Source: Coriobacteriia bacterium (GTDB lineage: Bacteria; Actinomycetota; Coriobacteriia; Coriobacteriales; Eggerthellaceae). From it: a stretch of DNA of 59,867 nucleotides. Below are positions 22,235 through 46,550 of the stretch, in pieces. The stretch is taken from the NCBI GenBank assembly GCA_030536315.1, contig JAUNQF010000005.1, positions 1-59,867 on the forward strand. Direction: 5' to 3'. Numbering within the stretch: position 1 is the first letter of the stretch; each line of letters opens with the position of its first letter. The translations under genes were made by a program, and so were the position numbers. The notes beneath the pieces were generated by a model, which was given only the letters and a program-made list of their open reading frames with translations, was not told the origin of the DNA and searched no databases.

Positions 22235-23608
22235 GTGTCAAATTCGCCAAAAACTATTTCACGAAAATTCATCTACTTTTTCGGCGCATTTGGGGGCATT
22301 TTATTTGGTTACGATATCGGCGTCATGACGGGCGCACTTCCATTTTTAAAAATTGATTGAGGAATCGAAGACCCGGCACTCATCGGTTGAATTACTTCAA
22401 TCTTAATGTTGGGAGCAATCTTCGGTGGAATTTTAGCGGGCCACTTTTCTGATAAATATGGACGAAGAAAAGTCATCTTGTTTTCATCATTCGTATTTGC
22501 AATAGGAGCTGTAATGGCTGCTTTCTCACCAAATCAAATGGTTGAATGGCTTCTTGCATCAAGGATTTTATTAGGGCTTGGCGTGGGAGCTGCTTCGGCA
22601 TTGGTGCCTTCGTATATGTCAGAAATGGCGCCGGCAAATAAGCGAGGAATGCTTTCTGGCTTAAATCAATTAATGATTGTTTCAGGAATGCTTCTATCAT
22701 ATATTGTCGATTACGCATTGCAAGGTCTTCCAAATAATATTTCGTGAAGGTTGATGCTTGGACTTGCAGCAGTGCCGGCTATCATATTATTGCTTGGAGT
22801 TTTGAGGCTTCCAGAATCGCCAAGATTTTTAGTTAAAAAAGGATTTGAAAAAGAAGCTAAAGAAGTATTAACTTTAATAAGGGAAAAAGACGAAATTGAG
22901 CCGGAGCTAAAAGAAATTGTTAAAACTGCAAAAGAAGAAAACGAAGCAAGAGTGAAGATAACTTTTAGATATTTGTTTGCAAAAAGATACAGATACCTTG
23001 TAATTGCGGGTGTCAGTGTAGCATTCTTACAACAAATAATGGGCGCCAATGCTATCTTTTATTACATTCCTTTGATTGTGGAAGAAGCAACAGGGGTGGC
23101 GGCTTCAAATGCTCTACTCTGGCCAGTAATTCAAGGTGCAATATTAGTTTCTGGCGCTATCTTTTATATGGCTATCGCTGATAAATTTAGAAGGCGTTCA
23201 ATGATTATTACGGGCGGAATTATAATGGGGCTATCGTTTTTAATGCCTGCAATTCTTGGAACTCTTTTAGGATCTGCCTTCCCTAAAGTAATGATTATTG
23301 CATTTTTGTGCATATATGTAGCGTTCTATTCATTTACATGAGCACCTCTTACATGAGTTATTGTTGGCGAAATATTCCCTCTTGGAATTAGAGGAAGAGC
23401 TAGCGGTCTTGCTTCGTCAATGAATTGACTTGGATCATTTGCTGTTGGTCTATTTTTCCCAATTATGACAGCAAGCATGAGTCAAGATATAGTATTTGCA
23501 ATTTTTGGTATAATTTGTTTATTAGCGGTTTTATTTGTAAAATTCAGAGTTCCTGAAACTCAGGGGGAATCTTTGGAACAAATCGAGAAGAAATGGAGTT
23601 TTAAGTAA
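22235..23608 (+). CDS. Sugar porter family MFS symporter (pentose/hexose:H+)
   Basis: This 457-residue, 12-TM member of the sugar porter family is marked by GYDIGVMTGALPF, SDKYGRRKVI, RILLGLGVG, PESPRFLVKKG, QQIMGANAIFYYIP and the C-terminal PETQGESLEQIE. XylE/AraE-type members import arabinose, xylose or galactose with protons; the operon context favours arabinose. Six TGA codons are read as Trp. AGGAGG five bases upstream supports a GTG start. It is the first gene of the arabinose operon, just after tRNA-Cys, and the kinase follows after one base. Confidence 0.92.
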
Positions 23609-23609
23609 A

Positions 23610-25205
23610 ATGGATAATGAAAAGAATAAAGCCATAATTGAAAATGGCGACGGAATTTTAGGCGTTGAGTTTGGCTCAACAAGAATCAAGGCTGTGCTTA
23701 TTGATGATGCTGGCGAAGTTCTTGCAACAGGTGGCCACAATTGGGAAAACCACTTCGACAATAATCTTTGAACTTATCCGCTTGACGAAGTTTGATCTGG
23801 GCTTGCAAGTTGTTATGAAGACTTGTGCAAAGACGTCAAAGTGAAGTATGCCTCTGAAATTACAAAGCTTAAGGCATTTGGAATTAGCGGAATGATGCAT
23901 GGTTACCTTCCCTTCGACAAGCAAGGTAATCAACTTGCTGAATTTAGAACTTGAAGAAACAATAACACGGGCAAAGCTGCTGACGAACTTACACAATTAT
24001 TTAACTACAACATCCCTCAACGTTGAAGCATTGCTCACATATATCAAGCAATTCTAAATGGCGAAGACCATGTTGGTGATATTGACTTTCTAACAACACT
24101 TGCAGGATATGTTCATTGGAAATTAACTGGAGAAAAACTTGCAGGCGTTGGCGAAGCTTCGGGAATGTTCCCTATCAATCTTGAGACTCATGATTATGAC
24201 GAAGAGATGTTAAATAAATTTAGTGATTTGATTAAAGACAAAAATTTTGGTTGGAATTTAAAAGATATTTTGCCAAAAGTTTTAGTTGCTGGCGAAAATG
24301 CCGGAGCGCTTACTGACGAAGGCGCAAAACTTCTTGATAAATCAGGAAAACTTCAAGGTGGCGCAATTGCTTGTCCGCCAGAAGGAGACGCAGGAACTGG
24401 AATGGTTGCAACTAACAGTCTTGCTAAAAGAACTGGTAACATTTCTGCTGGAACTTCGGCGTTTGCAATGCTTGTTTTAGAGAAAAATCTAAAGGAGCTC
24501 CACACAACAATTGATATGGTTACTACCCCAGCTGGAGACCTTGTGGCTATGTCTCATGCAAACAATTGCACTACAGAAATTAACGCTTGGGTATCTTTAT
24601 TTAAAGAAGTTTTGGAACTTGGTGGTTCGAATATTGACACTAACGAACTCTACACTTTGCTATTTGAAAACTCACTTAAGGGTGACGCAGATTGCGGAGA
24701 GCTCTTGCCATATTGTTTTCATTCTGGCGAAGACATTGTTGGACTTGAACAAGGTTGCCCAAGTTTCATTCATCCTACCAAGGCAAATTTCAATCTTGCA
24801 AACTTCATCCGAGCACAAATCTATTCCTGCTTTGCTGCAATGAAGATTGGTATGGATATTCTTATTAAAGACGAAGGTGCAAAAATTGACAAGATGGTAT
24901 GCCATGGCGGAATTTTTAAGACCGAAGGCGTGGCTCAACGTTTCTTGGCAGCTGCACTTAACACAAACATTGAAACTTTCAGTACTGCTTCGGAAGGTGG
25001 CGCATGAGGCATCGCACTTCTTGCAGCATTCAGCGCAAAAGATGGCAACGAAAGCTTATCTGACTTTATAAATAAGATTTTTGAATCTTACGGAGTCATT
25101 AGTGTTGAAGCAAATGCTGATGAAGTAGCTGGTTACGATAAATTTATTAAAGTCTACAAGAAAGGTCTTCCAGCCGAAAAAGACTTAACTGAGAAGTTCA
25201 ACTAA
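23610..25205 (+). CDS. FGGY carbohydrate kinase, probable L-ribulokinase
   Basis: This 531-residue sugar kinase of the FGGY fold has a first phosphate loop ILGVEFGSTRIKAVLID, the second loop SAGTSAFAM, and GGI plus GGAWGIALLAAF in the C-terminal domain. It resembles the kinase group found beside arabinose isomerase in some gut bacteria rather than classical AraB. With araA in the same operon, phosphorylation of L-ribulose is the likely role (inference). Five TGA codons are read as Trp, including that of GGAWG. D-xylulose is another possible substrate. Confidence 0.82.
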
Positions 25206-25230: not shown

Positions 25231-27618
25231 ATGGAAAATAAAGCATTTAATATTAAATTCAACAAAAAGGGTAACTTAATTGGACTTTATCAAAATGGCG
25301 ACAAGTACAATATGAATTGGGTTGTTGACCCAGCCTACCTAAAAAAAGTTGGTTTTAAGGATGACGATAAACTTTTTGGCGAATTTGAAGTTGTTACTTT
25401 TGGTGAAAAGCGAAGATCTATTAATGCAAAGCACCGAAAAGTTGTAACCGACGATTATAGGACTTCGGTAATTTATGATGATAGGCGCGTAAAAATGGAA
25501 GTTATTTATAACTTACGCGATGCCGAATACGAAGGTCTTGATTTTAAAGTTCAACTTACTAATAAAACCAATGAAAATTTTCAAATTAATGACTTTAGAG
25601 TATGGACTCCTTTTGCTCATATAATGTATCGTGATAAAAATGTTTTAAAAAACATTAATGAAAGTTGCACAGTAACGCCTTCTATTTCGAAAGATTTTAC
25701 TCGTCTTGCAATGGTCCGAAACAACAATAAAGGCCCAAATCTTGGAATGTATCAAACTTGGGGTGAGACAAAATCTGTGGGTACTTATTGCGAATATTCT
25801 AATTTATTTTTTGAAAATGTTTCTCCATCGCTTGATGGAATTTTATTTCACCAATTAGTTTTAGCCGGTGGTTATGTTGAAAAGGACGTTCCTCATCACG
25901 ATTGAATTTATGATCATAGCCCTATCGATCTTCCTGCAAATACAACAAAAGAATGGACTTGAACAATTTGTTCATTCAAAGATAAAAATGATTTTGGAAC
26001 TCAGGGCAAAAATCTTGGAATGCCATACATAGGTTATAATCCTTATACCCATGCAGGTGGTTATGTTGCACTTGAGGTGCGTTTACCACTTCGTCGCCGA
26101 ATTACAAACATTTATGTTTGATTTAATAAAAATGGCTATCTTCAAAAGTATGAATTGCCGCATAAGTATTATGAGCCTACTGGAGGTTTTATTTACTTCC
26201 AAGTTCATGAACAAGGAGAGCATAAAATTGAAGTAGTAATGGATGACGGCTGTAGTGATTGCGTTGTTCTAAATGTCATGGATAAAATTCCGCAACTTCT
26301 TAAAGAACGTTGTGATTATATTTGTGATACTTTGTATCACGGCAAAAATGACAAAGTCCCCTACTGCTTTTACCCTGTTTCAAACCAGGGCGAAAGCATC
26401 GGTAAGTTAAACCTTGTCTTAAAGTACAGTATTTTGGCAAATAAATTTAATCCTTCACATATTAAAAAAGTTGAAGAAAGTGCTGTTTATTACATTAAAC
26501 AAAAGTGATTTGAAAATGGAGACTTTTTAAAGCCTGTAAAACTTTATGGAAGTTTTTATCGTGTTATGGATTTTGAATATATTGCTCACACCTTCTTCTT
26601 GCTTTCGCAAATTCCTAACAAATATTTAAAATTGAATAATGCTAAAACTTATATGGATTGAGCGCTACAGGTTTTTGAACTTCGGATTAATCCAGATTTA
26701 CATAAGCTAAAGCGCGCTAAAGAAGAAACTCAAATGTTAGGTGTTTTCTTTTTATATGCTCCTGAACTTTTAGAAGCGCTAAAGGCAACTGGAGACATAA
26801 AGCGTTATAAAAAATATAAAAAGCTTTGGGATAACATTATAAAAAGAGTTGGTGATGGTGCTGATACTTATAAGGGTGCAATTACTGAACATTATTTTGA
26901 TAATGCAGGATTTGGTCCAAGTGCTGGTGCCTTGGCAATGAATGGTCACTTGAAGGGCGCCCGTAAATATGCCGAACTTCTTGTTGCTAACATTGGTTAT
27001 TCAAATGATTTTCGTGCTCAAAACCCTCACAGATGGTGAGAGGCGCTTTCTTATATGACGCATTCTTTGTGAGGAGGAATTTCTGCTGCAAGTATGCTTA
27101 AGTGTTATGAAGCATTAAATGATTGAAAGATGCTTGATGCCGCATATTATGCAACAGTTGCAATTTTATATTGTTATGATACACATGCAAATGCTTGCAA
27201 CTTACGTTTAAATAAAGGCGAGGCAGCTTCAACTTATTCTGTTGCGGGACCATTAATTAACTTCCCAAAAATTTCGCGCGACAGGTTTGGACAATCTGTC
27301 TTCGCAGAGCTTGGAGGAATATTTAGCAAGCTATTTGCAAATGACGATAGCACCATGGATTGAGACATGGGCGAAGAAATGTGTGCATATTTAGATGGAT
27401 TTGGAACAAAAACATTTGTTTATGAATTGCAAGGTATTATTTATGTGGTAAATGGAGTTCCCGTTCAAACAAAAGATGGCTACATAATTAAAAGCTATGC
27501 GCCATTTCCAAAGGAATTTCATTTCCTAGACAAAGATTGACATTTCGTTTGCAAAAAGAACGAAACAATAAGTCAGGTAAGGCTGACTAAAAATGGATTT
27601 AAACGAATAAAGGAGTAA
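25231..27618 (+). CDS. Unclassified intracellular glycosidase-like protein
   Basis: A 795-residue protein with no signal peptide. Residues 1 to about 250 look like a beta-sandwich; about 380-690 are helical with aromatic repeats (NPHRWWEALSYMTHS, GGISAASMLKCYEAL) like an alpha/alpha toroid, and a small beta tail follows. That layout is typical of several glycoside hydrolase and DUF5695-like families, but I cannot assign one. About ten TGA codons are read as Trp. It lies between the kinase and the GPH symporter, so it may hydrolyse imported arabino-oligosaccharides (inference). The gene body contains the ribosome binding site of the next gene. Confidence 0.6.
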
Positions 27619-27620: not shown

Positions 27621-29063
27621 ATGGCAAAACCAAAAGAAGTCACAAAAGACACAGGAGACGTAAAGTTATCGCTTAAAGAAAAGTGTGGTTATGCTTGCAC
27701 AGACATGGCAGGCAACTTGCTTTACGTTACAATTTCAACTTACATCATGTATTTCTATACTGATGTATTTGGAATTCCAGCATCAGGAGCACTTGGCGCA
27801 AGTATTATTTTGCTTGTTGCTCGTTTTGCAGATGCATTAAGCGCAATTGTGTGAGGTTCGATTATCGATCACACAAAAACTAAATGAGGACAATCTCGTC
27901 CGTGGTTCTTATGGTTAACAGGACCTTTTGTTGTTACAGTTTGGTTGGCATTTTTCGCTCCAGATTTACCAGATGGAGCTCCTAAGTTTTGGTACGCAAT
28001 GATTACCTATATTTTAAGCGCGGGCATTGTTTATACTGGAGTTCAAACTGCAATTACTGCTATTTTGCCAAACCTTACAAGTAATAACAGGGAGCGCATT
28101 AATGCTAACACATTCCGTATGGCAGGTGGAAGCTTGGGAAGTTTTATTACCTGTTCACTTTGTATTCCTTTGGTTGGAGCTTTTGGTTATGCCTTAACTG
28201 GAGAGAAAAATGACAAAGTTGGGTTCATGGTTACCATTGCCCTATTTGGAATTCTTGCAGCGGCAATGTTAATTTTCGCTTTTACAAGTCTAAGAGAACG
28301 CAATTTTCATCCAGAAACTCAAAAACCAATTCCTTTTAAAGATTCACTTCGTGCTTGCAAAGGAAACTGACCTTGAATTATTTTGGTAGTTGCATTTGTA
28401 ATTTACTGGGTTGCTCAAAGTACACGAAATGGTACATCAACTTATTATGCTAAATATGTTTTGGGCAACGAAAATCTAACCTCGCTAATCAATGGAGTCC
28501 AAGTTTTGGGATTAATTGGAACATTTAGCATGCCTTTCTTGGTAAAGCATACAAGCAAAACTGGAACAATGCTTATTGGTCTTGCCGTTGGGGCTGTTGG
28601 ACAGCTTTGCATACCTCTTGCTGCAAACTTCGCAGGAGTTGATATTCTTGGGATTCCAGGAGATATGGTTGTATTTACAATCTTTTGAACTATTGGAGTT
28701 TTAGGAGCATCTGTTGCAGTTGGCATGCCGTTTGCAATGCTTGCCGACACTGTTGATTATGGCGAATGGAAAAATGGAGTACATGCAGCCGGATTTTTAA
28801 CTGCTGTTGGTTCGGCATTTTGCATTCAGGCGGGCAGTGGCTTCGGCGCTTATGTTCCACTTGAAATTATGAATGCGGCAGGCTATGTTGCTAATCAGGT
28901 TCAAACGCCCGAGGCGCTAAACGCAATTAGTTTTTGCTTTATATACCTGCCAGTAATAGTTTATGCAATTGTTGCTGTAATTATGCTTTTCTATATTAAA
29001 TTCGAAAAGATGGAACCAATGATTAAAAAAGAGCTTGCAAAACGTCACGCTCAGAAGAAATAA
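27621..29063 (+). CDS. GPH family cation symporter (glycoside-pentoside-hexuronide)
   Basis: 480 residues and 12 TMs of the GPH family, with CGYACTDMAGNLLYVTISTY near the start, SIIDHTKTKWGQSRPW after TM2-3 and MLADTVDYGEWKNGVHAAG in the second half. Such carriers import melibiose-, xyloside- or glucuronide-like oligosaccharides with Na+ or H+. Together with the preceding glycosidase-like gene it suggests uptake of a short pentoside. Five TGA codons are read as Trp. AAAGGAG overlaps the upstream stop, so translation is coupled. Confidence 0.92.
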
Positions 29064-30578: not shown

Positions 30579-32064
30579 AAGCTTCGCGAAGTGCTTCTCA
30601 AACTTTTACCATAGCGTAAGTATCGAGCTCGCAATATTTCAAAAGATTATGGCGGGCTCGTTTTTTATCTTCGTCGTTCATGTGTTCGATGGCTGGGAAG
30701 ATTGCCATGGCTTCGCCGCCGTGATGAACTTGGTCGAGGTTGTGATAATCAAGTTCTGGGTCATCTGGGAACAGCGCCGGCAAAACACTTTTGATTGAAA
30801 AAGAGCCGCCCATTTCTTTGTTATACATCCAACCATTGCTAAAAGGCACAAGCAAATCAACAATATTATCGCGAATGTTTAAAAGATGATTGGCCAAATC
30901 TGGATAAGCGTCCGCCAACTCCTTAATTCTTCCGCACTCAAAACCCTTGTTATAAGCGGTCGTGCAAACATCCATAGGAATATCAGCAACAAGTTGCTCA
31001 GCCAAAGCACGACGCGGATCTGGACCAGACTCCGCTAAGAATTCCTTATGCTTAAGCTCCCCGCCTTCTTCTTCGATATAGTGAAGCGAATATTGGAAAG
31101 TTATCTGCTGATAAGGACGCGTCCCCTTAAAACGAGGAATCGCATCTTGCATTGTCTCGAAATCCAAAAAATACAAAGGGTAACTTAAACTATCAAGGAA
31201 TTCTTTTATCTTTTCGGGTTCAGCGTAAAGGCCAAAGTCATTCAAAAAATAATCAACTTGACGCTGCTGTTTTTCGTTAAGCATGTCGTGGTAATTGTTG
31301 AGCTCATCAAAACTTACAATTCCTTGATTATAAAATTTCAACTTTTTATCAAAATTAAGTCTATATAAATCAAACACCGAAGGCGTTGGCAAATCCCGAG
31401 AGCAATATTGAAAGAATGAACAATCATAAGGCTTGTGGCAATTACACGAAAGGCCAATTTCAGGCTCATCTTCCATAGCCAATACTTTTTCAGCCTCGGC
31501 TAAGTTATCTTCAACTTTTTCATATTCTTCCAAAATTGCATCACTAATATCTGTGATTTTGAAAAACTCGTGGATATCAAGTTCATCTTCTAAAACATAT
31601 TCGTTGTTGATAACAACCGTATAAGTTTTATTAATTGTTAAACCACAATGCTCCAAAACATATTTTTGATAGGCTAGGTCTGGAAGATAAGCATCCTTCT
31701 CGCCATCCGTTGAACTTTTAACTTCATAAATGCTTCAAGCATTGCCTTCTTTTTTCAAAATATCACAAGCACAATAAAGACCTTCAAAACTAAAAGCAGC
31801 CTCGCAAATTACTTCGGTGCCTTTGTCAATTTCAGTCTTAGTGTTCTCAAGCATTTGCTTGATGTCTAACTTTTCACCATCGCGAACAGTAACATCAGTA
31901 TAATCTCCAAAAAGACCTTTTGCGAGTTCCCCAACGGCAGTTCCAACTTCAAAACGCTTTTGCAAATCTTCAGGAACAACCTCAACTTCGGGCTTATACT
32001 TTTTTAGCCAAGCCAACTTTGGGCACTGGCAAAAACCACAATATTTTGATTTTGAAAAGTTCAT
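30571..32064 (-). CDS. DUF2779 protein: Cas4-like nuclease fused to a DEDD exonuclease-like domain
   Basis: 497 residues. The N-terminal half resembles a Cas4/RecB-type PD-(D/E)XK domain with cysteines at 9, 12 and 14, an IYEVKSST active-site strand and a second cluster, CNCHKPYDCSFFQYC, consistent with an iron-sulphur site. The C-terminal half has LYFLDFETM and later Asp residues like a DnaQ/DEDD exonuclease. The function of the family is not established; DNA repair or defence is plausible. Two TGA codons are read as Trp, the second extending the end to WEALREASN. Its ATG overlaps the stop of a sugar kinase (TAATG), an odd place for a nuclease. Confidence 0.82.
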
Positions 32065-33614
32065 TATTTAGCTCCATGATCGACGGTTTTGTGGACGATG
32101 TCACGCATTTGTGGCCAGGTTTCCATGTAGCGTTCCATGTAGAATTTGTATTCTTCGTGAGCTTTCATGTCTGGCTTGTATTCAGTATCTTTGCGAACCA
32201 TAGCGTCTGCAGCTTCGGCAAAATCTTTATAGATTCCAATGCCTTTTGCAGCGATGATGGCATCCCCTAGGCAACCCGCGCTCTGGCTTTCAACAGTTGT
32301 GTACATTGGAATTCCCGTTACATCGCAATGCATTTGCGTCCAAAATGGCGATTGAGCAATTCCACCACAAGCGATAATTTCGTTGATTTCATAGCCGGCA
32401 TCTTTCATACTAAGAAGGCAATGATTCGCGCCGTAGGCTACCCCTTCGTAGACCGCACGAGCAATATGCGCTGGACTAGTGCCAATTGAAAGGCCCCAAA
32501 ACATGCCACGAGCTTTAGAATCCGCATAAGGCGCACGGTTGCCCTGGAAATAATCCATCATAACAAGGCCATCGGCGCCAATTGGAATGCTTTCGGCTTG
32601 CTTTGTAATGTAGTCATAAATGTTCATATCGTGAGAAACGGCTTCTTCGGTCCAAGAAGCTGGAATCAAGTTATTTCTAAACCAAGTTAGAATTGCCCCC
32701 GAAGCGGTCTGCCCGCCTTCGAGCAAACTTGTGCCGTCATACATGCAATTTGGATAGGTGCCATTAACTCCATCAACGTGGAAGTCCTTCTCGGAAAGAC
32801 CGAGCAAACAAGTGCTGGTGCCACCAATTAAAGTCATGCCATTTGGGCGCACACCCCCGACTCCAAACATACAAGCGTTGCAATCTGCGGTGCCTTCGAC
32901 TACAACAGTATTTGTGCTAAGGCCAAACATCTCAGCCGCAGCCTCACTTACGTTACCAACAACATCGCCAACACTTAAAACTTCGCTTGGAATTTTGTCA
33001 ACAACATCGCCGATTCCACAAGCCTCAAAAAGATCCGTTGGAAGTCCGCCATTTTTATCATCGAAGTTCCAGCGAAACGCAGCAACAGACTTACTTAAAG
33101 TCTTTTTGCCAGTCAAAACTCAATTGAGCCAATCTTCGAATTCGAACATAGTCTGGGTGCTTGCCCAGTTCTCAGGCTCATATTTTTTTACCCACATATT
33201 TTTAGGGATCATAGTATCAGCCCTAAATGCAGGCTTATAAAAGCGAGTGGCTTCGTAGTCTTTGCGAATCGAATCAATGAAGTCGGCCTCTTCGGCAGCA
33301 CGAACATCCATCCACAAAATTGGAGGACGAACAGATTTATCATCCTTGCCTAAGTAAACTAAAGTGTTGGTCGTGGCATCGCAACAAATTGCGGCGATGT
33401 CGTTTTTGTCAACGCCAGCTTTCTTGATGCTCTCAGGAATTGCAGTCTTTAGCGCATTAAGCCATTCAACATCACTTTGCTCAGCCCAACCATTTTTAGG
33501 ATAAGTTGTGCCGTATTCAGAAATCGCATAAGCAAGATTGTTTCCAGTCTCATCAAAAATTGCAACACGAACACTTCCTGTGCCGCAATCAATTCCCATT
33601 AAATGCTTAGCCAT
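32064..33614 (-). CDS. FGGY carbohydrate kinase, ribulokinase-like
   Basis: This 516-residue FGGY kinase has GIDCGTGSVRVAIFD at the N-terminus, LWMDVRAAEEA, IGGTSTC and YEGVAYGANHC/ACGGIAQS in the C-terminal ATP-binding half. It is closest in style to ribulokinase and polyol kinases, and the exact pentulose or polyol is uncertain. One TGA (at 33117-33119) is Trp in DWLNWVLTG. It sits in gpsA-like/xylB/rpiB/kinase/DUF2779 with gaps of about ten bases. With RpiB beside it, D-ribulose or D-ribitol metabolism is possible. Confidence 0.82.
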
Positions 33615-33623
33615 AGCTTCCCC

Positions 33624-34061
33624 CTATTCATTTTCAAAATCAACGATGCGCTGAACCTTCGCAACACTTCGTCCGTTCATATCAAATTCTCCAGCACCCA
33701 AAAACTCTTTAATAAGTTGCTTAGCAAGCTCAATTCCAATAACCTGCGAGCCCATTGTTATGATGTTTGCGTTGTTTGATAGCTGTGCGCGTTGTGCCTG
33801 GTAGACATCGTGAATATTTGCGGCATAAGCGCCTTTAACCTTGTTTGCGGCAATAGAAACACCAATTCCTGTCCCACAAAGCAAGATACCTTTATCAAAA
33901 TCTCCAGCAGCGACTGCCTTGGCAACTTTTATTGCAGTGTTAGCATAAATTGGATCGACGTCTCCGAAGTCCTCCACATCATGTCCCAAACTTTTAGTAA
34001 ACTCAATTAGTTGTTGCTTAAAATCTTCGGCGTTTGGGTCGCAACCAAAAACAATCTTCAT
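33624..34061 (-). CDS. rpiB: Ribose-5-phosphate isomerase B (RpiB/LacAB family)
   Basis: 145 residues with GCDPNAEDFK at the N-terminus, the active-site loop GILLCGTGIGVSIAANK (Cys base) and NANIITMGSQVIG. It interconverts ribose-5-P and ribulose-5-P; LacA/B-type relatives use other aldose phosphates. AGGAGG lies five bases before ATG 34061, which decides the start over the TTG three bases upstream. It contains no Trp. It lies between two sugar kinases, linking their products to the pentose phosphate pathway. Confidence 0.9.
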   Translation of the reverse strand: MKIVFGCDPNAEDFKQQLIEFTKSLGHDVEDFGDVDPIYANTAIKVAKAVAAGDFDKGILLCGTGIGVSIAANKVKGAYAANIHDVYQAQRAQLSNNANIITMGSQVIGIELAKQLIKEFLGAGEFDMNGRSVAKVQRIVDFENE

Positions 34062-34070
34062 CAATTCCTC

Positions 34071-35576
34071 CTAAAGTTCCAAAATTGACTTAAAACTATC
34101 TTTAAGTTGTGGATAGAGCTTGTCAAATTCGGCATAAACCTTGTCATAGAATTTAGCACGCTGCGCGTCCGGCGTGTAAACTTCGTCACGCATCTTAATG
34201 ATCTTATCGCAAGCCTCCACAACGCTTGGATAAGCACCAGTTCCAACCATAGCCAAAATTGCAACGCCAAGAGCCGCAGCATTTTCAGAATTCATATCTG
34301 GAAGCTTGACTGGAATGTTATAAATATCAGCCATAAGTTGACGCCAGAAAGGGCTCTTCGAGCCGCCACCACACATAATAACGTTGTCAGGCTCAATATC
34401 AGCATTGCGAATTGCAGTCAAAATATCACGAAGAGCATAAGTTGCGCCCTCCATAACTGCACGAGTCATATCCCCTTTTGTGTGAACCTTCGAAAGACCG
34501 ACGAAGGAACCTCGACAGTTCAAATTAAAGTGAGGCGATTGCTCACCATTTAAATAAGGAAGATAAATTAGTCTGTTAGCACCAGGCTGCGAAGCTTGAG
34601 CCACCTTGTTGATCTCTTCGTATTCAGCATCATTTGGATACATTTCATTGCGCCATCACTTGAGCGAATCTCCACAAGAATTTACGCTTCCCATAAAATG
34701 CCACGCACCAGGAACAGGCATACAATAAGTGTAAACTGCTTGACCAGGGTCTGTAACAGGCTTTTCAGTGAAGGCGAATACGGTTCCGCTTGTGCCAATA
34801 GTTGTCATTGCGCGGCCAGGAGCAACAATTCCAGTTCCAACACCAGCGGCGGCGTTATCCCCTGCACCTCCAACAACGGCACATTTCGAAGTAATGCCCA
34901 TTTCGCGTGCAACATCTTCTAATACATATCCTGTAATTTCGGAGGACTCATAAACCTTACCCATCATGTCTTCGGTAAGTCCCATAATTTCCATAATTTC
35001 GCCACACCATTTACGTTTTGGAACGTCCAAAATTTGAGTTCCGGATGCATCCGAAACTTCGGTGGCATACTCACCAGTTAAGCGATATCGCAAATAATCC
35101 TTTGGAAGCATAATATGTGCAACTTGAGCATAAATATCAGGCTCATTTTCTTGCATTCACTGAATTCGCGAAGCCTGAAGACCAGGACGCGCAGGATTGC
35201 AAACATGTTTTAGGAAGGTGTCATTTCCAACTCGGTCGCGAAGATGCTCGCAAGCCTCAGTTGTTCGCGCATCGTTCCATAAAATTGCACGACGCAAAAC
35301 TTCGCCGTTCTTGTCAGAAAATACAGCACCTGCCATCTGACCCGAAATTCCAAGGCCGAGAACCGAAGCTGGATCAACCTTCGCTTCTTCCATGACTGTG
35401 CGAACAGTTTTTACAGCAGCTTGATACCAATCCTCAGGTTCCTGCTCTGACCAGCCATTATTAGGTTGATAAATTGGATATTCAATCGCGTTTTGAGCAA
35501 TCTCTTTTCCATTGACGTCGAAAAGCACAGTTTTCATGCTTCCCGTTCCTAAATCTAAACCCAAATAATAATTCAT
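34071..35576 (-). CDS. xylB: Xylulokinase
   Basis: This 501-residue FGGY kinase has LGLDLGTGSMKTVLFD, ISGQMAGAVF, ILWNDART, TTIGTSGTVFAF and CGGGSKSPFWRQLMAD, the pattern of bacterial D-xylulokinases. Two TGA codons are read as Trp: one at 35157-35159 (SRIQWMQE) and one next to a TGG (SLKWWRNE, 34656-34658), a direct demonstration that both codons are used. GGAGG lies seven bases before the ATG. No xylose isomerase is in the window, so xylulose may come from arabitol or xylitol oxidation or from a distant xylA. Confidence 0.92.
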
Positions 35577-35591
35577 AATTACACCTCCAAA

Positions 35592-36629
35592 TTACATTTT
35601 CTTTTCAAATTTCTTCCACGGAATATTTACAGTTTTTCCTTCGTTTAGCAATTCATCAACATGCATAAGCAAAGGAAAATCATCCAAGTTAACTTTGCCT
35701 CGCTTCGCAAGTGCCTTGACAGCGCGAGCAGTGCGAGTCGCAATTACAACAGCCTCCAAAGTTTGGCCTTCCAACTTCTTAAGCGTTTCCTCAATTGTAT
35801 AGCCCTGCCCCAACATAAGGCCTACAGTTCTGCTTCGTCCTGCTGCAACAGTTACGTTTAAGTCACCAGCCGCAAACATAATATTTTCATCTTTACCACC
35901 AACAAGCCGAAGCAAATCCAACATCTCCTTCACGCTTTGTTGAAAAAGCGCGCTCTCCGAATTGTTGTGGTCGATGCCATCATCGCCAGCCTTTTCGGCC
36001 ATGCCAATTGCAAGCGCAGTTCCTAAAGCATAACCGTTTTTAAGCGCAACAGCAGCTTCAAGCCCGACAACATCTTGAGTCAAACTAATAATGTAATAGT
36101 CAGTTGAAAACATATCGCGAATTTTCTCCAGAATTTCAAAATCAGGTCCACAATATGCGACAAACGAGGGGTCATGGTCAGACAAATCACGAGCAGTACA
36201 AGGACCGCCAATCGCATAAAACTTTAGCTTGGAGTCTTTCGGAAGTTTAGATTGCCAATAATTTGGATAAACCTCCATGCTTCCATCTTCGTGATCAAGC
36301 ATTCCTTTAGTTACAGAAATCAGTGGGACATTTTCATCCAGGATTGGAAGCACTTCGTCAGCAAACCAATCTACTCCGAAGCTCGATACTCCGCAAACAA
36401 CTAAATCTACACCTTGAAGTGCATCTTTCATGGCATCATTTTTATAGTAATTAATTCCGTCATGTAAAGTTCTGCGAAGGTTAACATGATAATTATCTTC
36501 ACGAAGGCGGTCAATTACTTCGTCATCTAAAGGGCTGCCAACCAACCTAACCTCATGTCCATTTTCAAACAGCGGAAAAGTTAAGGCAGAAGCCATTTGT
36601 CCAGAACCTATTAATGTAACAACACTCAT
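35592..36629 (-). CDS. Glycerol-3-phosphate dehydrogenase-like NAD(P)-dependent enzyme
   Basis: 345 residues. A Rossmann domain (VTLIGSGQMASALTFPL) is followed by the GpsA-type core: SVTKGM, FYAIGGPCTARDL, GLEAAVALKNGYALGTA and TVAAGRSRTVGLMLGQG. The catalytic Lys of LKNGYA is present. GpsA normally has GAGSWGTA at the nucleotide site; here it is GSGQMASA, so this is a divergent paralogue. As first gene of a pentose-kinase operon it may oxidise a phosphorylated sugar or polyol rather than make glycerol-3-P (inference). AAAGGGGC lies five bases upstream. No TGA occurs within it. Confidence 0.75.
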   Translation of the reverse strand: MSVVTLIGSGQMASALTFPLFENGHEVRLVGSPLDDEVIDRLREDNYHVNLRRTLHDGINYYKNDAMKDALQGVDLVVCGVSSFGVDWFADEVLPILDENVPLISVTKGMLDHEDGSMEVYPNYWQSKLPKDSKLKFYAIGGPCTARDLSDHDPSFVAYCGPDFEILEKIRDMFSTDYYIISLTQDVVGLEAAVALKNGYALGTALAIGMAEKAGDDGIDHNNSESALFQQSVKEMLDLLRLVGGKDENIMFAAGDLNVTVAAGRSRTVGLMLGQGYTIEETLKKLEGQTLEAVVIATRTARAVKALAKRGKVNLDDFPLLMHVDELLNEGKTVNIPWKKFEKKM

Positions 36630-36690
36630 TCGTGCCCCTTTAATTAAATAGCGATTATGAAATTTAGCATTTCAAATTATACTATAAAAA

Positions 36691-37200
36691 TTAAAGTGAA
36701 GTAATTGCTGTATACATTTTTTCGACGATAACTTCGGGGCGAAGTCCTCCGCACGCGCCTCCGAAGGCCGGAATTACAATGCTTTGAACATTATTTTCGC
36801 AAGCAACTTCCAAAGTTGACTTCGTGCATTCATAGACAACATTTGGATCTTGAATACGCGATGGGTTAATCATCGAAGGCGTGTGAATGAGGTTTATCCC
36901 CTCCATACCAGTGTCAATTATAAAACTTGTTCCAACTGGCTGCTGTCCTTCGTAATTTTCAATAATATAAGCTTGAACTCGCTTAGTTAAATCTCATCCA
37001 AAGTATTCTGAGAGCGCTCGATCATAGCCACCTGCCATTACACCATGAGAATTGCCAGGTGATACAACACAATCAACATCGTAATTTGCCATAAAACTAT
37101 CGAAGTCAGCATGAACTACTTCGACACAATCAACTCCTGAAAACTTCTCATTTCAAGCTTTGACAACAGCAGGATTGATATCTAACAAATAAATCTTCAC
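36691..37200 (-). CDS. Macro domain protein
   Basis: 169 residues form one macro (ADP-ribose-binding) domain, recognisable by CVVSPGNSHGVMAGGYDRAL and VIPAFGGACGGL. Such proteins remove or bind ADP-ribose or related metabolites. Two TGA codons are read as Trp (VKAWNEK and YFGWDL). The start is GTG 37200, without a ribosome binding site but six bases after an extended -10 (TGATAAAAT), so it is probably leaderless. It is transcribed away from the GH127 gene. Confidence 0.78.
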
Positions 37201-37206
37201 GTATTC

Positions 37207-37257
37207 ATTTTATCATAAGCTTTATTTGATAACACTTAAGCTTCCTAGTGCTATAAT
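37207..37257. promoter_or_regulatory. Divergent promoter pair: macro-domain gene and GH127 gene
   Basis: Minus strand: TGATAAAAT (-10 at 37207-37212) sits six bases from GTG 37200. Plus strand: TGCTATAAT (-10 at 37252-37257) gives a short leader with an AAAGGA site before the GH127 ATG. Both are extended -10 elements; -35 boxes are weak. Confidence 0.5.
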
Positions 37258-37291
37258 AATTTTGCTAATAAATCTCACGAAAGGAATCATA

Positions 37292-39778
37292 ATGAAAATT
37301 AAGGGTATTCATAAGCGAATATTGATTTGCGTTGGGGTTGTTGTTATGGCTACAGCATTTATTTTTGGACTCAGCGCTTGCCAACAAAAACAACAAGCAC
37401 CAGTTAAAACTGCTGTTCCGTTTTCACAGGTTAACGTTGACGATGGATTCATGCGCGATTATATAAAACTTGTAATATGTAATGTTATTCCAACAGCAAT
37501 TGCCAATGTTGAAAAAGCTGAAGGCGGAATTCCAAACATTAAAAATTGCGCATTGTGACACGAAGGAAAAATTGCCCAACGCCCTGAACACCAAGGTGCT
37601 AAATATGTAGATTCTGATGTTCATAAAGTTTTAGAGTCGATGTGTATGGCTCTAGATACCGATGCGCAGGGCGACCAACAAATTCTTGCTGCGCAAGCAA
37701 AAATTGCTGCAAAGCTTAATGAATGGATTGAGTATTACACTTGAGCTCCTGAGCAAAGCGGACAGTACGCTGGATACTTTAATTCGTATTATTCCTTAGA
37801 GCCAACCTATGAAAAATATAGCAATACCGATAACCATGAACTTTATTGCCAGGGTCATTTTATCGAGGCAGCAGTTGCCCATTACAGATACACAATGCAC
37901 CTAGGGAAGCCTGACCCAGTACTCTTAAACGTTGCGATAAATTGTGCAAACCACATTTGTGATACTTTTGGACCAGATAAACGTAAACAAATTACAGGAC
38001 ATCAAGAACTTGAGCTTGCACTTCCAAAACTTGCGAAGCTGTGTCAAGAAATTGGCGAGCCATATAATGCAAGATCCAAAGAATACATTGATAAAGCTGC
38101 CTTTTTCCTAAGTGTTCGAGGCGATTATGCAAACCGATCAACCGACGATGTTGCCGACATGCGTTCGCATTTCCAGGATCATGCAAAAGTCGAAGACCAG
38201 ATGGAGCCTGTTGGTCATGCAGTTCGAGCACAATATATGTACACCGGCATGAGCGAATTGGCTGCTCTTGATTCAAGCTATTACCAAAAATATGACAAAG
38301 CACTCACTTCCCTTTGAGATTGTTTAACTCATAAAAAACAATATGCTAATGGAGGTCTTGGCGACAGCAGTAATGATAACGAAGGCTTCGCCGATGAGTA
38401 CTACTTACCAAATTACAGTTCATATTGCGAGACATGTGCAGGTGTTGCAAACATGCTTTGGAATCGCGCCATGAGCACAATTTATGATGGATCCCAATAT
38501 GCTGACCAAATTGAAACTGATCTTTATAATAATATTTTGGGTTGTGTAAACTTTGATGGTAATGCCTTTTATTACGAAAACCGACTTGCAACTGTTGATG
38601 CCTTCCAACGTAAAGAATGGTACGGTACAGCTTGTTGCCCTCCAAATTTTATGCGAACAATTCTCCAAGTTGGAGGATATATTTACAACACAACAAATGA
38701 CAATGTTTTTATAAATCAATACATTTCTAACACTGCTAATTTTGAATTTGGCGACAACAAACTAAACGTTAATATAAAGAGCAACTTCCCTTATAAGGGC
38801 AACGGGACAATAACTTTTGTGCCAGAAAAGGCTGGGAGTTTTGGCCTTGAACTTCGAAAGCCAGCATGATCTGATAATTACACTATAAAGGTAAATGGAG
38901 CTGTTGCTAACACGACAGAAAAAGATGGCTACATTGTCATTAATCAGGAATGGCCAGCAAAAGCTTCCACTATCGAATTTGATTTCAACATGCCACTGCA
39001 ATATGTAACCATGAACGAAAAAGTCACTTTCGATAACGGCTTGATGGCACTTCGTCATGGACCAATTTTGTATTGTGCAGAACAATGTGACAACCCTGGC
39101 ATTGACTTAACTAAAGCAGTTGTTGAACGAAGCGATAAAGGAAGCTTTGAATATGTTGCAAGCTTGGATGGTAAAGCAAATCCATTTAATGTTCGTTCGG
39201 TATATGTTCTAAACCAACCGGGCAAAGTTTCTACTGGAAATGATGCGCAAAGCTTTACTTGAAGGTTAATTCCTTATTACGCTCGTTGCAACCGTACGAA
39301 TTCTGGCAGTATGTCTGTGTTCTTGCATGACAGCAACGCTCCAATAAAAATAAGTCAAAAAGCAAAAGTTAGTGCCAAATTCACATATAGTGGAGACAAT
39401 GTAAATGCAATTAACGACGGCATACTTGAGCCTGAAGTTAGATGGACAGACAATGAAGACCCTGCCCTAAACCCATGAGTTCAATATAATTTTGACAAGC
39501 CTATTAGCTTTAAAGATTTTAGAATTTATTGGTATGAATATTACAAAGACATAACTATTCCATGGCGCTTAACAATCCATGTTAAAAATAGTCAAACGGG
39601 CGAAGAATATTCAAAAGAATTTAAAAACGGAGATTTGCCGATAGTAAATAAAACAAAAGTTGCAGATTATTCTATGGACGAAGTTGTATGCGGCGATGAA
39701 ATTCGTATTGAAGTACACAACGAACATGGTGAAAAACCAGTCGGCATTGTGGAATGAGAAATCTTCGAAGCAAACTAA
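37292..39778 (+). CDS. Surface lipoprotein beta-L-arabinofuranosidase, GH127
   Basis: 828 residues. A lipoprotein signal ends at the lipobox GLSAC (about residue 31). The GH127 (DUF1680) core follows with its metal-thiolate site: Glu and Cys in YCETCAGVANMLWN and the paired Cys of GTACCPPNFMR. A C-terminal discoidin-like beta domain (from about residue 690) may bind sugar. It would release L-arabinofuranose from plant cell-wall polymers outside the cell and feed the arabinose operon. Seven TGA codons are read as Trp. GAAAGGA lies before the ATG. The GH67 gene follows after 17 bp. Confidence 0.9.
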
Positions 39779-39795
39779 TCTTAAAAGGAGTACTT

Positions 39796-41895
39796 ATGAA
39801 AAAGTTTTTAATAATTTTAAACGCAATAATTCTACCTGTGATTTTGTGTGCATGCGTGTCATGTGCAAACTTTCAATCTAGTGACGAAGGTCATTCGCTT
39901 TGGTTTAAGACATCCAATACAAATGTTGTAAAAAATGTTGATAAGAGTGATGCCGATACAGCAAGCTTAAATATTGCAAAAGCAGAACTTAAGCAATATG
40001 GTAAAAGCGAAGACGAAGTTGAGCTTTCGCTTCTAAGCACAAAAGACAAAAATATTGGCGATCAAGGCTACACAATAGATGCAAGTGATTCGTCAAAAAT
40101 TAAGATTTCTGCCAATACACAAATTGGGCTTTTGTATGGAACTTACGCTTATATAAGAAACGACAAAACTGGTCAACTTAAAAATAATGTAGTGACTGAA
40201 ACTCCTTCATATAATAATCGAATTCTTAATCACTGAGACAACCTGGATGGAACTATCGAGCGAGGCTATGCTGGGTCTTCGATGTGAAAATGAGAAGAGC
40301 TTCCAAATAAAACGAGACCAGAATACGAAGAATACGCGCGTGCCAATGCAGCAATAGGAATTAATGGAGCTGTGTTAAACAACGTAAACGCAAAGCCAGA
40401 AATTCTCACATCTGAATATCTCGAAAAAGTAAAAACACTAGCTGACATTTTTCGCCCATATGGAATAAAAGTCTACCTTTCAATTAATTTTGCCTCCCCT
40501 AAACACCTGGCAAATTTGGACACAGCTGATCCTCTAAACCCACAGGTAATTAAGTTTTGAAACGACAAAGTTGCTGAAATATATAACTACATTCCAGACT
40601 TTGGGGGCTTTTTGGTCAAAGCAAATTCCGAAAGCCAGGCTGGCCCTCAGGATTATGGACGAAACCATGCTGATGGTGCAAACATGCTGGCAGATGCCCT
40701 GAAGCCATACGGCGGAATTGTAATGTGACGCGCCTTTGTTTATTCGCCTCAATCCGAAGACCGAGCCAAACAAGCTGTTGAAGAATTCCAACCATTGGAT
40801 GGTCAATTCCGTGACAATGTTAGTATCCAAATTAAAAATGGGCCTGTAGATTTTCAGCCACGTGAACCTTTTAGTCCACTTTTTGGGTGCATGAACAAAA
40901 CAAATATTATGCCCGAAGTTCAAATTACGCAAGAATATCTTGGTCATTCAATTTATATGGCCTACCTCCATCCAATGTGAAAAGAATGTTTGGACAGCGA
41001 CACTTATCAATATGGAAGCGGAAGCACAGTTGCTGCAATTACCCAAGGAAAGCTTCGCCAAACCTCAATAAGCGCAATTGCTGGAGTAACAAATATTGGC
41101 GATAATGCAAATTGATGCGGTCACGACTTGGCCCAGGCTAATTGATATGCCTACGGACGCATGGCATGAGACACAAATGCGACTTCGCAACAAATTGTAG
41201 AAGAATTCCTAAAACTTGCGTTTTCAGATAACGAAGATTTTGTGTCGAAGGTAAGTGGAATGATGCTTGACTCGCGCGAAACCATTGTAAATTATCAAGA
41301 ACCTTATGGACTTCATCACATCTTCGAAATGAACCATCATTATGGACCAGGACCATGAGATGTTTTGTCGAGACCTGATTGGTGCCCTTCGTATTATCAT
41401 AAAGCCGCAGCAGATGGCCTGGGATTTAATCGTGCTTCAACAGGCAGTAATGCAGTTTCGCAATATAATGAGCCACTTAAATCGTTGTATTCAAATCCAG
41501 AAACCTGCCCAGATGAATTATTACTATGGTTTCATCACCTACCTTGAAATTATAAAATGAAAAATGGCGAAACCCTTTGAAATGCCCTACATCACAAATA
41601 TCAGGCGGGCATAGACTCAGCCAAATCTTATATCGATACTTGAGATAGCGTCAAACAATATGTTGATAACACGCGTTTTAACAGAGTTCGCGAAAAGCTT
41701 GTTCGTCAGGCAAAGGATGCAATATGGTGGCGCGATGCCCAAATGCTATATTTTCAAACATTTTCTAATTTGCCATTCCCAAGCGATGTTTCTCCTACAC
41801 AAAAAGATTTAGAATGACTTGAAAACTTTAAGCTTGACATAACAAATTACGAAGCTCCTAAAATCGAAGACCTGCCTGACTACAAGCTTGATTAA
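39796..41895 (+). CDS. Surface lipoprotein alpha-glucuronidase, GH67
   Basis: 699 residues with a lipoprotein signal (cysteines in [11 protein letters not shown]). The GH67 core is clear: [37 protein letters not shown] and [12 protein letters not shown]; the first and second carry substrate-binding and catalytic regions. It removes (4-O-methyl)glucuronic acid from xylo-oligosaccharides. TGA is the major Trp codon (14 or so, including two three bases apart in SMWKWEE), the highest density in the window. Without recoding the gene would be shredded into about 15 pieces. It is co-transcribed with GH127. Confidence 0.93.
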
Positions 41896-41927
41896 AAAAG
41901 TAACTGCACAATTAGAGTTTTAAGTAT

Positions 41928-44234
41928 TTATAATCCTGCTGTGCTTCGGGAGTTTATTCCTTCGTTGACACCACCAGCAAGAATATAAGGCTTAACATCC
42001 ATCTCTTGACTATAAGTCATATGGAATGTAAGTTCGCCGCCGTTCATAATATCTTGATAAGTGATACAGTCGGCCGAAACTTCTTCGCCGTTTAAATAGA
42101 TTTTGTCAACATAGTAATTTTGCTCACTATAGTTTTCAGCCTTTACAGTAAAAGTTTTGCCATTTGGTAGATGAATTGTTACACTTTCAACTTGAGGAGC
42201 ACCGAAGACGAAGTCCCCACCGCAAGGGTTAACTGGATAAAAACCTAAAACGCTAAAGATATATCAAGCCGACATGGCTCCGCAGTCTTCGTTACCGCAA
42301 AGGCCTTCAACACCAGTCTTATATAAGTTTGTACAAATTTCGTTAACCAAAGCTTCAGTTTTATGAGGCTGACCAGCTAACCTATAGAGATAAGCAACAT
42401 GATAGCAAGGCTCATTTCCGTGTGCATATTCGCCAATTAAGCCAGTTATATCACGAGAATGTTCAAAACCACGTTCTCTAGTTAAGCTTGTTCTAAATAA
42501 AATATCTAACTGATTGCAGAATTTTTCTTTACCACCAAACATATCAATTAAACCAGGAATGTCTTGCAAAACATGCCAGGTATAGTGCCATGCATTGCCT
42601 TCGGTGTAATCGCTTCCGTCCCCATTTCCATAATGCTCATACCAAAAGCCATCAAATGGATCCCTTCAATTTCCTTGACTGTCCTTTCCTCGCATTAAAA
42701 GAGTTTGCTGGTCAAATACATTCTTTCAATAATTTGCACGCTTGCTAAAAAATTCGTAATCGTCCATCTTGCCCAATTCTTTAGCCATAAGAGCAGCACA
42801 ATAATCATCAAAGGTGCTCTCCAAAGTTATGGATACTGACTCGCTTTTTAGATGGTCGTATGGAATGTAACCATATTTATCATAATCTTCCCAATGAGTT
42901 TTATAATGTTCGTTAGTCAAAGAAACCTTAATTGCGTTATACGCTCGCTCAACATCGAAATTTCGAATCCCTTTTAGATATGCATCAACAATAACAGGCA
43001 CTGCATGGTTTGCAATCATGCACTCGCCTTCCACACCTCAAATACTCCAAACAGGCAAATGACCAATCTGATCAAACTGGTCAAGCATAGAATTTATACA
43101 ATCGCTTGTCAGCTTGGGATTTAGAATAGTGTAGAGTGGATGAGCGGACCTAAAAGTATCCCAAAGCGAAAGTGTAGAATAATTAATTTTCTCTCCTGCA
43201 TCTGCAACATTATCTGGATGCAAATACAACCTATACATTGCGCTATAAAACTTTTCCTTTTGCGTGTCTGTGCCTTCGATGTCAATTGCGTTTAGTAGCT
43301 TTGCCCATTCGTTTTGAGCGGAGTTCTTAACGTTATCGAAGTTCCAACCAAGCATTTCGCTTTTGATGTTTTTCTTAGCATTATCAACGCTCTCTTTAGA
43401 AACAGAAACCTTAACACTTAAACTTTCCCCTTCAGGAATGTCAAAACTTAAGACATGACGATGTGCTTTCTCACGAGGGTCACGAAGATCAAGCTTAACA
43501 TTATCTGTATAAGGATGGCTAAATTCAATCTCGTAATAAAAATCACGCTCAAGCCAAACCTTTGTTTTAGCATGTCCAGAAATATGAGTGCTATCAACAA
43601 AGTTCTGCTCACTTGATATTACTCTCTCTTCAACAACACCTTCCTTGCGTGTAATCCCAGATTGAAAATCGATCATAAGCTTTGCTTCATCACCTTTATC
43701 AAAGGTAAACTTTTGAATAGAGGCATGAGGCATGGCAGTTAGCTCTGCCTTTACTTTTGCATCATCCAAATAAACACTATAATAGCCAGGCTCACCATGT
43801 TGATTCTCGTTTTTATACAAACTTTTAAATGGCGCATTTTTTTCTTGATAGGTAGCGGCCTTGTTGGCTTCGGCGACCTCTTCCAATTTATTATCACCAC
43901 AATATGGAAACATTAGCAAGTCACCGAAGTCTGTCCTGCCTGTTCCATTTAGGCGTGTTTGGGTAAAGCCATAAAGCGTATCGTCATTATATTGATAACC
44001 TGAACAGTAATATCAAGATTCACTACCACTTTGTGGCCCAACCATAGTCATGCTTAAGGGATAACCGGCACTGGGAGATGTATGTCCAATGTCCGATGCA
44101 CCTGCAAAAACATCTATGTATTGAAACTTATCCTTTGAAGTATTTTGAAGGCTACATGCACTGCATATTACAACACAAATAGCTACAACAAATATGGAAC
44201 TTAATACTCCACATTTAATAAATAGATTTTTCAT
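41928..44234 (-). CDS. Surface lipoprotein GH92 alpha-mannosidase (first copy)
   Basis: 768 residues with a lipoprotein signal (lipobox CSAC near residue 27). The GH92 pattern runs VFAGASDIGHTSPSAGYP, SLWDTFRSAHPLYT, HGNEPCYHVAYLY (catalytic acid region) and GLCGNEDCGAMSAWYIFS near the C-terminus. GH92 enzymes are calcium-dependent exo-alpha-mannosidases of N-glycans or mannans. About six TGA codons are read as Trp. AAGGGG lies upstream of the ATG. It diverges from a second GH92 gene and converges on GH67 with 32 bp between the stops. Confidence 0.92.
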
Positions 44235-44336
44235 AAATACCCCTTCGTATAGAAATTAAAATAGCACTATTAAGATATTTATATTATAATTGATGAACTA
44301 AAAGAATTATCCATATATAAATCAGGAGGAACTCAA

Positions 44337-46550
44337 ATGGCTAAAAAAATCACTATTGGTATGAGGGGCAAAATTGTTCTTGTTTCAGTAATTAGTATTG
44401 TTTTGCTTGTAGGTATTACCATACTGTCAAGTTGCAACACTGTTAAGAGAAGTGCACCGGAACAATACCTCAATGACTATGTCAATGTATTTGCGGGCAA
44501 TGCCACAGTTGGACACACATCCCCCTGTGCAACTACCCCTTTTGGAATGGTTAAGGTAGGCCCTGAAAGTGGATTAACAAGCTGAAAATATTGCGCTGGA
44601 TATCAGTACACTGACACAGAACTTTATGGTTTTTCTCAAAATAGACTTAACGGTACAGGATGCGCAGACTTAGGTGATTTACACTTATTCCCATTTAGCG
44701 GAGACTGAACTAAGGCCGAATATAAAAGCGCTTATAATAAAAATACCGAAAAAGGCGAACCAGGCTACTATACTGTTCGCTTAGAGGATGCCAAAGTAAA
44801 TGCCGAAATGACATGTACCCCTCACGTATCTATTGAGCGCTTTTCTTTTGATGATCCAACAAGCGCCAATTTATTGATTGATTTTCAAAGCGGAATAATT
44901 TGAGATGAAAAAGGGTTCCATAAAAAAATTGTTTCTGCAACTCAAAATTTTGTTGACCCATATCATATTACAGGAAATGCAAACACAGAAGCATGAGCAG
45001 AAAGGTGGTATTACTACGACATCGAATTTGATGCACCATACACAATCAAGCAAGAACTTCCGCTTCGTGACGAAAACGAAAAAGCTCCAAGATATATTTT
45101 AACGTTTAAGCTAGCTAATAAACAACCTCTAAATGTAAAGATTTCAATTAGTAAGAAAAGCATTGAAAATGCTATAACCAATATTGAAAAAGAAATGCCA
45201 AATTGAGATTTTGATCAAGTAAAAGATAAAACTCAAAACAGCTGGAATGAAGTATTAAACCGTATTAATGTTAACGCTGATGATGAGCATAAAATGTTGT
45301 TTTATTCTTCTATGTATAGATTATTTGAACAGCCAGAAAACATTTCAGACGTAAATGAAACTCCATTTTATTCAACATTGTCTCTTTGAGATACTTTTAG
45401 AGCTGCACACCCACTTTACACAATAACATCGCCTGAAAACGTCAATGATTTTGTAAACTCAATGCTTGACCAATATGATAAACAAGGATATTTACCAATA
45501 TGACCACTATGGGGCTACGACACAAACACTATGATTGCCAATCATGCGGTTCCAGTAATTGTGGATGCTTATTTAAAAGGATTTAATGGTTTTGATGCAA
45601 ACCGAGCTTACGAAGCAATTAAAACTACTTTAACTGTTAACCACGTAGATGCAAACTGAGACTTATATAATCAATATGGTTACTGACCCTTGGACAACAT
45701 TGATCAAAGTGCTTCAAGAACACTTGAATGTTCATATGACGATTATTGCGCAGCATTGATGGCGCAAAAACTTGGGCATAAGGAAGATTACGAATTCTTC
45801 TTGAATCGTTCAAATAATTACAAAAATATATGGGACTCAAGTAATATGTTAATGCGTGCAAAAGACAAAAACGGCAAATGGCGTGAGCCTTTCAGTGGAT
45901 TTGATTATTATGTGCCTAACACCGATAGAGAAAAACGTGATTTTACCGAAGGAAATTCATGACAGTATACATGACATGTAATGCAAGATATCCCAGGACT
46001 TATCGAACTATTTGGAGGAAATGATAAGTTCTGCGAAGCGCTGGATAAGTTCTTCACCGTATCACATAACTATGAAAATCCTAAAGATATACCATCTGAT
46101 GTAACTGGACTAATTGGGCAGTATTGTCAAGGAAACGAGCCAAGTCATCATGTTGCTTATCTTTATACTCTTGCTGGCCAACCTTGAAAAACCCAGCAGT
46201 TAATTAATCAAATTTGCAAGACTCGCTACAACAATGGAGTTGATGGTCTTTGTGGAAACGAAGATTGTGGTCAAATGTCAGCATGGTACATTTTTAGTGT
46301 TCTTGGTTTTTATCCTGTTAATCCATGCGGCGGTGAATATATTTTAGGAGCTCCTCAAATCGAAGGCGCAAGCATTGATCTTGGCAATGGAAAAACATTC
46401 ACAATGAAAGCTAACAATTTTGGCGAAAAAAATATTTATGTTGCATCTGTTAGCTTAAATGGCAAAGAAATTACTGACTGAAAAATTATGCACCAAGATA
46501 TCATGAATGGCGGAGAAATTGTCTTTAACATGACAGACAAAAGACCATAA
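44337..46550 (+). CDS. Surface lipoprotein GH92 alpha-mannosidase (second copy)
   Basis: 737 residues with lipobox ILSSC near residue 33. It has VFAGNATVGHTSPCATTPFG, SLWDTFRAAHPLYT, QGNEPSHHVAYLY and GLCGNEDCGQMSAWYIFS. It clearly shares ancestry with the divergent neighbour, but the two sequences differ widely, so they probably cleave different mannosyl linkages. About 13 TGA codons encode Trp, including both flanks of PIWPLWG. GGAGG lies seven bases before the ATG. A TATAAT in the 102-bp intergenic region probably drives it. Confidence 0.92.

Follow-up and report, generated by a model that had tools for sequence, protein, structure and literature searches.

Polysaccharide lyase family PL27, whose enzyme removes sugars from plant gums, is represented by BACCELL_00875 (PDB codes 5no8 and 5nok). 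The family is described as an L-rhamnose-α-1,4-D-glucuronate lyase composed of a β-sandwich and an (α/α)6 barrel, which frees L-rhamnose from glucuronic acid by β-elimination (PMC8377490). DUF5695 (PF18951) is a family of unknown function, and the one paper found to mention it is on fungal phylogenomics. Judging by the listings, none of the papers found on PL27, BACCELL_00875 and DUF5695 describes the protein treated here, P0001.

P0001 is encoded in a stretch of 59,867 nucleotides from a gut-type Coriobacteriia bacterium, referred to as the window, by a single frame of 795 codons that runs from ATG to TAA under translation table 4 (Table 1). The frame contains 10 TGA codons, at residues 225, 244, 297, 426, 477, 603, 614, 632, 711 and 770, and 6 TGG codons. 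Table 11 splits it, the longest piece being 224 amino acids, and the opposite strand has stops throughout. The gene is intact; its codon usage and that of the 36 other tabulated window genes correlate at 0.90. The N-terminus (MENKAFNIKFNKKG), as read from the sequence, contains no hydrophobic segment, and for this reason P0001 is most likely intracellular. The first-pass annotation had described a large 795-residue protein between a kinase and a GPH symporter, free of a signal peptide and fragmented by about ten TGA codons under table 11. Under the table-4 translation that it proposed as a check, each of these points holds, with an FGGY kinase and a TIGR00792 symporter as neighbours. Its explanation that TGA codons let the gene escape annotation holds insofar as the frame is broken under table 11, but the correctly read protein also matches no family.

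Table 1. Features of P0001, of its operon and of the members of a third related family (window coordinates unless a locus is named).
Feature	Position	Strand	Basis or remark
P0001 gene (795-residue protein, remote PL27/DUF5695 relative)	25231..27618	+	table-4 translation, profile comparison
Residues 1-390: β-sandwich, second β domain, first toroid helix	25231..26400	+	hhalign E 1.6e-10 to PL27
Residues 351-735: all-helical, putative (α/α)6 toroid and active site	26281..27435	+	low-confidence models, global alignment
Motif EHYFDN, residues 553-558	26887..26904	+	aligned with relatives
Motif RWWE, residues 601-604 (W603 is TGA)	27031..27042	+	aligned with relatives
C-terminal extension, past the end of the PL27 alignment	27436..27615	+	alignment, model
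Sugar porter family MFS transporter	22235..23608	+	64-65 % identity to a porter next to AraB at four loci of Selenomonas ruminantium
AraB-type FGGY kinase (L-ribulokinase by linkage)	23610..25205	+	homologue loci, AraA linkage
GPH-family cation symporter	27621..29063	+	TIGR00792, 324.8 bits against a cut-off of 231.35
L-arabinose isomerase AraA	29094..30578	+	NF002795, 762.8 bits against a cut-off of 622
Third-family member, locus L164	835-3246		about 760-800 aa
Third-family member, locus L157	1015-3369		about 760-800 aa
Third-family member, locus L193 (Phocaeicola)	3704-6103		about 760-800 aa
Third-family member, locus L194 (Persicobacter)	5821-8088		about 760-800 aa

The genetic code was tested at conserved tryptophans of the neighbouring AraB, AraA and sugar porter. 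Among the best 80 of 578 AraB homologues, TGA codons 54, 115 and 139 correspond to tryptophan in all 80, codon 62 in 69 and codon 466 in 79; in the loci of the same 80, TGA codon 163 of AraA is tryptophan in 51 of 51 homologues and six TGA codons of the sugar porter are tryptophan in 4 of 4. By these alignments TGA is tryptophan in the region of P0001. Within P0001 itself, W244 and W603, both TGA-coded, fall on invariant tryptophan columns of the joint alignment with its relatives, as does W632 (also TGA), the placement of which is less sure. The 37 tabulated genes of the window contain 116 TGA against 115 TGG codons in total and end in TAA (30) or TAG (7); none ends in TGA, which follows partly from the method, since table 4 was used to delimit the frames.

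The same use of TGA as tryptophan is observed in the host genome (contigs C4, C5, C9, C14, C21 and C28, and C24, which is the window), six stretches of which carry 5 to 25 TGA each, contig C14 having the fewest. Relatives of the same family seem to be on the standard code, the low-GC genomes G008 and G016 having no TGA in more than 4300 codons each; TGA was counted in long frames, a count that is unreliable for the high-GC relatives. All 37 tRNAs found in the genome were inspected: the tRNA-Trp carries CCA only, and the sole UCA anticodon belongs to a tRNA-Sec. The genome is 75 % complete and may be a mixed bin. As bacterial groups that read UGA as tryptophan, PMC8629427 lists Mycoplasmatales, Entomoplasmatales and a small number of endosymbionts.

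The genes for the sugar porter, the FGGY kinase, P0001, the GPH symporter and AraA follow one another on one strand, with 25 nt between the kinase and P0001 and 2 nt between P0001 and the symporter. The kinase falls under the cut-off of every NCBIfam kinase model. It is 53–62 % identical to its best 80 of 578 homologues, which come from Clostridium, Lachnospiraceae, Pasteurellaceae, Bacteroidales and others. Of these 80 loci, 51 contain AraA, 9 a GH51 arabinofuranosidase and 4 a sugar porter like that of the window, the counts being lower bounds, with several loci on short contigs; in the Actinobacillus locus L055, AraG and AraC adjoin the kinase. Because AraA accompanies this type of kinase in 51 of the best 80 of 578 loci, the kinase beside P0001 is, by linkage, an AraB-type ribulokinase and the operon is araBA. 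The placement of P0001 in an arabinose operon, as initially annotated, is therefore sustained.

No relative of P0001 occurs in the best 80 of 578 AraB loci, and hence its link to the operon rests on one genome; kinase neighbourhoods were rejected as a source of homologues. The same 80 of 578 loci contain no GPH symporter like that of the window (threshold 120 bits), and the best plasmid neighbours of the symporter give no clue to its substrate. The GH51 arabinofuranosidase (ArfA type) found close to araB in 9 of the best 80 of 578 loci holds a place comparable to that of P0001, although it is of another family, with no sequence match to P0001 in Pfam or NCBIfam. Further along the window, at 32064-46550, a second ribulokinase-like FGGY kinase, XylB, GH127, GH67 and two GH92 proteins are clustered, making this a region for pentoses and plant glycans within a small recoded genome. 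The GH67-type protein is presumably an α-glucuronidase.

Direct searches find no family for P0001. It matches no Pfam family at E up to 10, no NCBIfam family, and by phmmer no PDB chain at E up to 10, BACCELL_00875 included; plasmids and phages give no match at E up to 1, viral contigs searched with P0001 or its relatives give no useful match, and genome contigs searched with P0001 yielded nothing useful. Searches of whole genomes (100 from relatives, 396 from the class, 396 from the phylum, 9 chosen individually, 274 from a clostridial class and 277 from the phylum to which a Bacteroidales record belongs, in overlapping sets) gave, the own genome aside, only weak matches, of which L132 proved real. 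On inspection, those at L136 and L138 were considered unrelated, and the remaining ones were dismissed by profile scan alone (all loci except L001, L020 and L021). A weak match in the clostridial genome G851 (E 0.0016, residues 1-33 of P0001) is a 695-residue frame, P0002, which scores 383 bits to BACCELL_00875 (5no8). The start FNIKF...GN...DKYNMNW, a likeness to PL27, is shared with P0002.

Profile comparison places P0001 near PL27. The PL27 profile was made of four sequences, BACCELL_00875 and three called PL27-like from their similarity to it, and in hhalign it matches residues 1-390 of P0001 at 96.9 % (E 1.6e-10, 341 columns), while for control proteins of the window the values are 0.7 % (GH92), 1.1 % (GH127) and 0.2 % (GH67). 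The score of 87.9 compares with a mean of 18.5 and a maximum of 29.1 for 100 shuffles and with 17.2 for reversed P0001. W244 and D254-F255 align with columns that do not vary in PL27. A joint PL27 and DUF5695 profile extends the alignment to residue 565 (96.3 %, E 1.6e-9; 10 % for the GH92 control), and a joint profile of PL27 and the third family extends it to residue 616 (94.8 %). The DUF5695 profile alone (11.9 %) and the third-family profile alone (0.3 %) stay within noise. By these comparisons P0001 is a remote relative of PL27 and, less directly, of DUF5695, over residues 1-390.

PL27 and DUF5695 are themselves homologous by profile comparison (99.5 %, E 1.2e-22), and the PL27-like protein of L153 exceeds the DUF5695 threshold with 43.4 against 25.2 bits. 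DUF5695 proteins and a third family, which Pfam does not match, were found with the joint alignment as query. The third family matches the PL27 profile at 97.3 % and over most of its length; it has no match in Pfam (L164 and L157 scanned) and none in NCBIfam or the PDB (L164). Five DUF5695 genes are found in one genome (loci L153-L168, from genome G1352 and others); none was found in 119 genomes of the phylum of P0001 or in 14 control genomes. The third-family gene of Persicobacter lies between sulfatases, near GH97 and GH92 genes. A clostridial PL27-like protein (L145, 5206-10563) has no evident signal sequence, and its gene adjoins two Gfo/Idh/MocA oxidoreductases and an EamA transporter, a context that suggests an intracellular pathway for PL27-like proteins outside Bacteroidota.

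P0001 belongs to neither PL27 nor DUF5695. Overall identity to PL27 is 18–19 %, phmmer against the PDB shows no recognisable full-length similarity to the characterised member, and of the PL27 toroid motifs HEVNYEQ, RHWDG.WFGK and PHYWS only E, R and W are identical. Unlike PL27, P0001 has a longer toroid and a C-terminal extension, is most likely intracellular and is encoded in an araBA operon. It stays below the gathering threshold of DUF5695, whose Pfam model gives no match even at E up to 10, and it is not matched by the Pfam models of glycoside hydrolases (GH51, GH127, GH92, GH67 and others). Since it fails both the sequence and signature tests of PL27 and the DUF5695 model threshold, P0001 is, as judged by Pfam, NCBIfam and the PDB, neither of the two and forms a deep branch of its own within the group; it may conceivably fit a CAZy family that Pfam does not model. 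The family libraries thus fail to recognise the protein, in agreement with the first-pass annotation for Pfam, NCBIfam and the PDB sequence search, but the protein does have relatives, being a deep branch of the PL27/DUF5695 group.

The order of β domains followed by a helical domain is the same in P0001 and PL27, the N-terminal part being recognised by profile similarity and the helices being predicted. Local hhalign does not detect the toroid of P0001 taken alone (0.1–5.4 %). In a global alignment with the PL27 barrel it reaches a z-score of 5.95 (100 shuffles), compared with −1.4 to 3.7 for six control stretches, GH67 being the highest, and it keeps 23 of the 78 invariant PL27 toroid columns. 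Two AlphaFold models from the single sequence, a check proposed at the outset, are of low confidence (pLDDT 33.5 and 39.5) and give no reliable tertiary structure. The layout of a β-sandwich and a helical toroid, a guess in the first-pass annotation, is supported by remote homology to PL27 and by predicted secondary structure.

Two motifs of the toroid are common to the group. EHYFDN of P0001 aligns with EVNYEQ of PL27, [DE]-x-x-F-E-D of the third family and S-E-Y-x-x-D-R of DUF5695; its E553 and D557 are candidate catalytic carboxylates. RWWE has its counterparts in R-H-W-D (PL27) and R-[FY]-W-E (third family). The third-family R-[FY]-W-E-A resembles RWWEA of P0001; direct similarity between this family and P0001 does not rise above noise. 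In two of three MAFFT modes E553, D557, R601 and W603 are on acidic, acidic, arginine and tryptophan columns, in common with PL27 (E/D, E/D, R, W), and 14, 14, 14 and 13 of the 14 other sequences agree; in the third mode E553 has no match to DUF5695. In 120 trials with a shuffled toroid all four columns were filled in 1 and three in 10, the four columns having been picked after the alignment was seen. Together these alignments suggest that the toroid is probably a PL27-type barrel with E553, D557, R601, W603 and E604 occupying the shared motif positions.

Our reading of P0001, which we consider to have an even chance of being correct, is that of an intracellular carbohydrate-cleaving enzyme on a deep branch of the PL27 group that frees arabinose from an imported oligosaccharide. 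It draws on the location of the gene between AraB and AraA and on the lack of a secretion signal, and the operon makes arabinose release the likeliest role. The action on imported arabino- or xylo-oligosaccharides that the first-pass annotation proposed would likewise have its basis in the operon. The GPH symporter encoded directly behind P0001, perhaps together with the sugar porter, would import a short arabinose-bearing oligosaccharide, which P0001 would cut in the cytoplasm. Its N-terminal β domains would be followed by a helical toroid carrying the active-site pocket. The freed L-arabinose would then be isomerized by AraA and phosphorylated by AraB, products of the same operon.

We infer both the arabinoside substrate and the chemistry, for which we lean slightly toward hydrolysis by a carboxylate pair over β-elimination. 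The reasons are that the first shared motif has Phe as its aromatic residue in P0001 and Tyr in PL27, and that the 75 % complete genome yielded no GH88 or GH105 gene to process the unsaturated product, the same search being positive in 3 of 14 control genomes. A tyrosine was reportedly proposed as the base in a 2017 paper on PL27; the Tyr of the first motif may or may not be that residue. The description glycosidase-like stands as one possible chemistry, but the one characterised family of the group is a polysaccharide lyase. P0001 might tentatively be seen as the founder of a new family of enzymes within the PL27/DUF5695 group, namely as an intracellular arabinoside hydrolase with a lyase-type barrel and its own symporter in araBA. 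D557 together with E604 or E553 would form the carboxylate pair, and the hydrolase would have evolved from, or beside, a lyase.

A true PL27-like lyase is a possible though doubtful alternative. Such an enzyme would cleave a pentosyl- or rhamnosyl-(1,4)-uronide by β-elimination to a free sugar and an unsaturated uronate, in line with the fact that the sole characterised relatives of P0001 are the PL27 lyases. GPH symporters include hexuronide importers by name, and the GH67-type protein of the window shows that the cell meets uronates. However, the PL27 signature is not preserved, with 23 of 78 invariant toroid columns kept and HEVNYEQ and PHYWS changed, and both the Phe in place of Tyr and the lack of a GH88/GH105 gene in the 75 % complete genome count against a lyase as well.

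It is unlikely that P0001 is a hydrolase or phosphorylase for a non-arabinosylated oligosaccharide, whose gene sits in araBA because it is co-regulated or was inserted there by chance along with that of the symporter. Phosphorylases with a β-sandwich and a helical barrel exist, and P0001 and the symporter form a tight pair that is absent from the best 80 of 578 AraB loci and may be a recent insertion; the layout, however, is that of co-transcription, with AraB before and AraA after, and the operon gives no hint of another sugar. A role of P0001 in carbohydrate binding or regulation, or its being an inactive group member, as the low conservation of invariant PL27 toroid positions might indicate, is very improbable in view of the intact gene and of the acid, R-x-W and acid positions common to four groups that it keeps.

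If the arabinose-freeing reading is true, PL27, DUF5695, the third family and P0001 would constitute one large group of sugar-cleaving barrels, for whose P0001 branch the arabinose operon provides a concrete substrate hypothesis. The locus also illustrates how the recoding of TGA hides whole enzymes from standard annotation.
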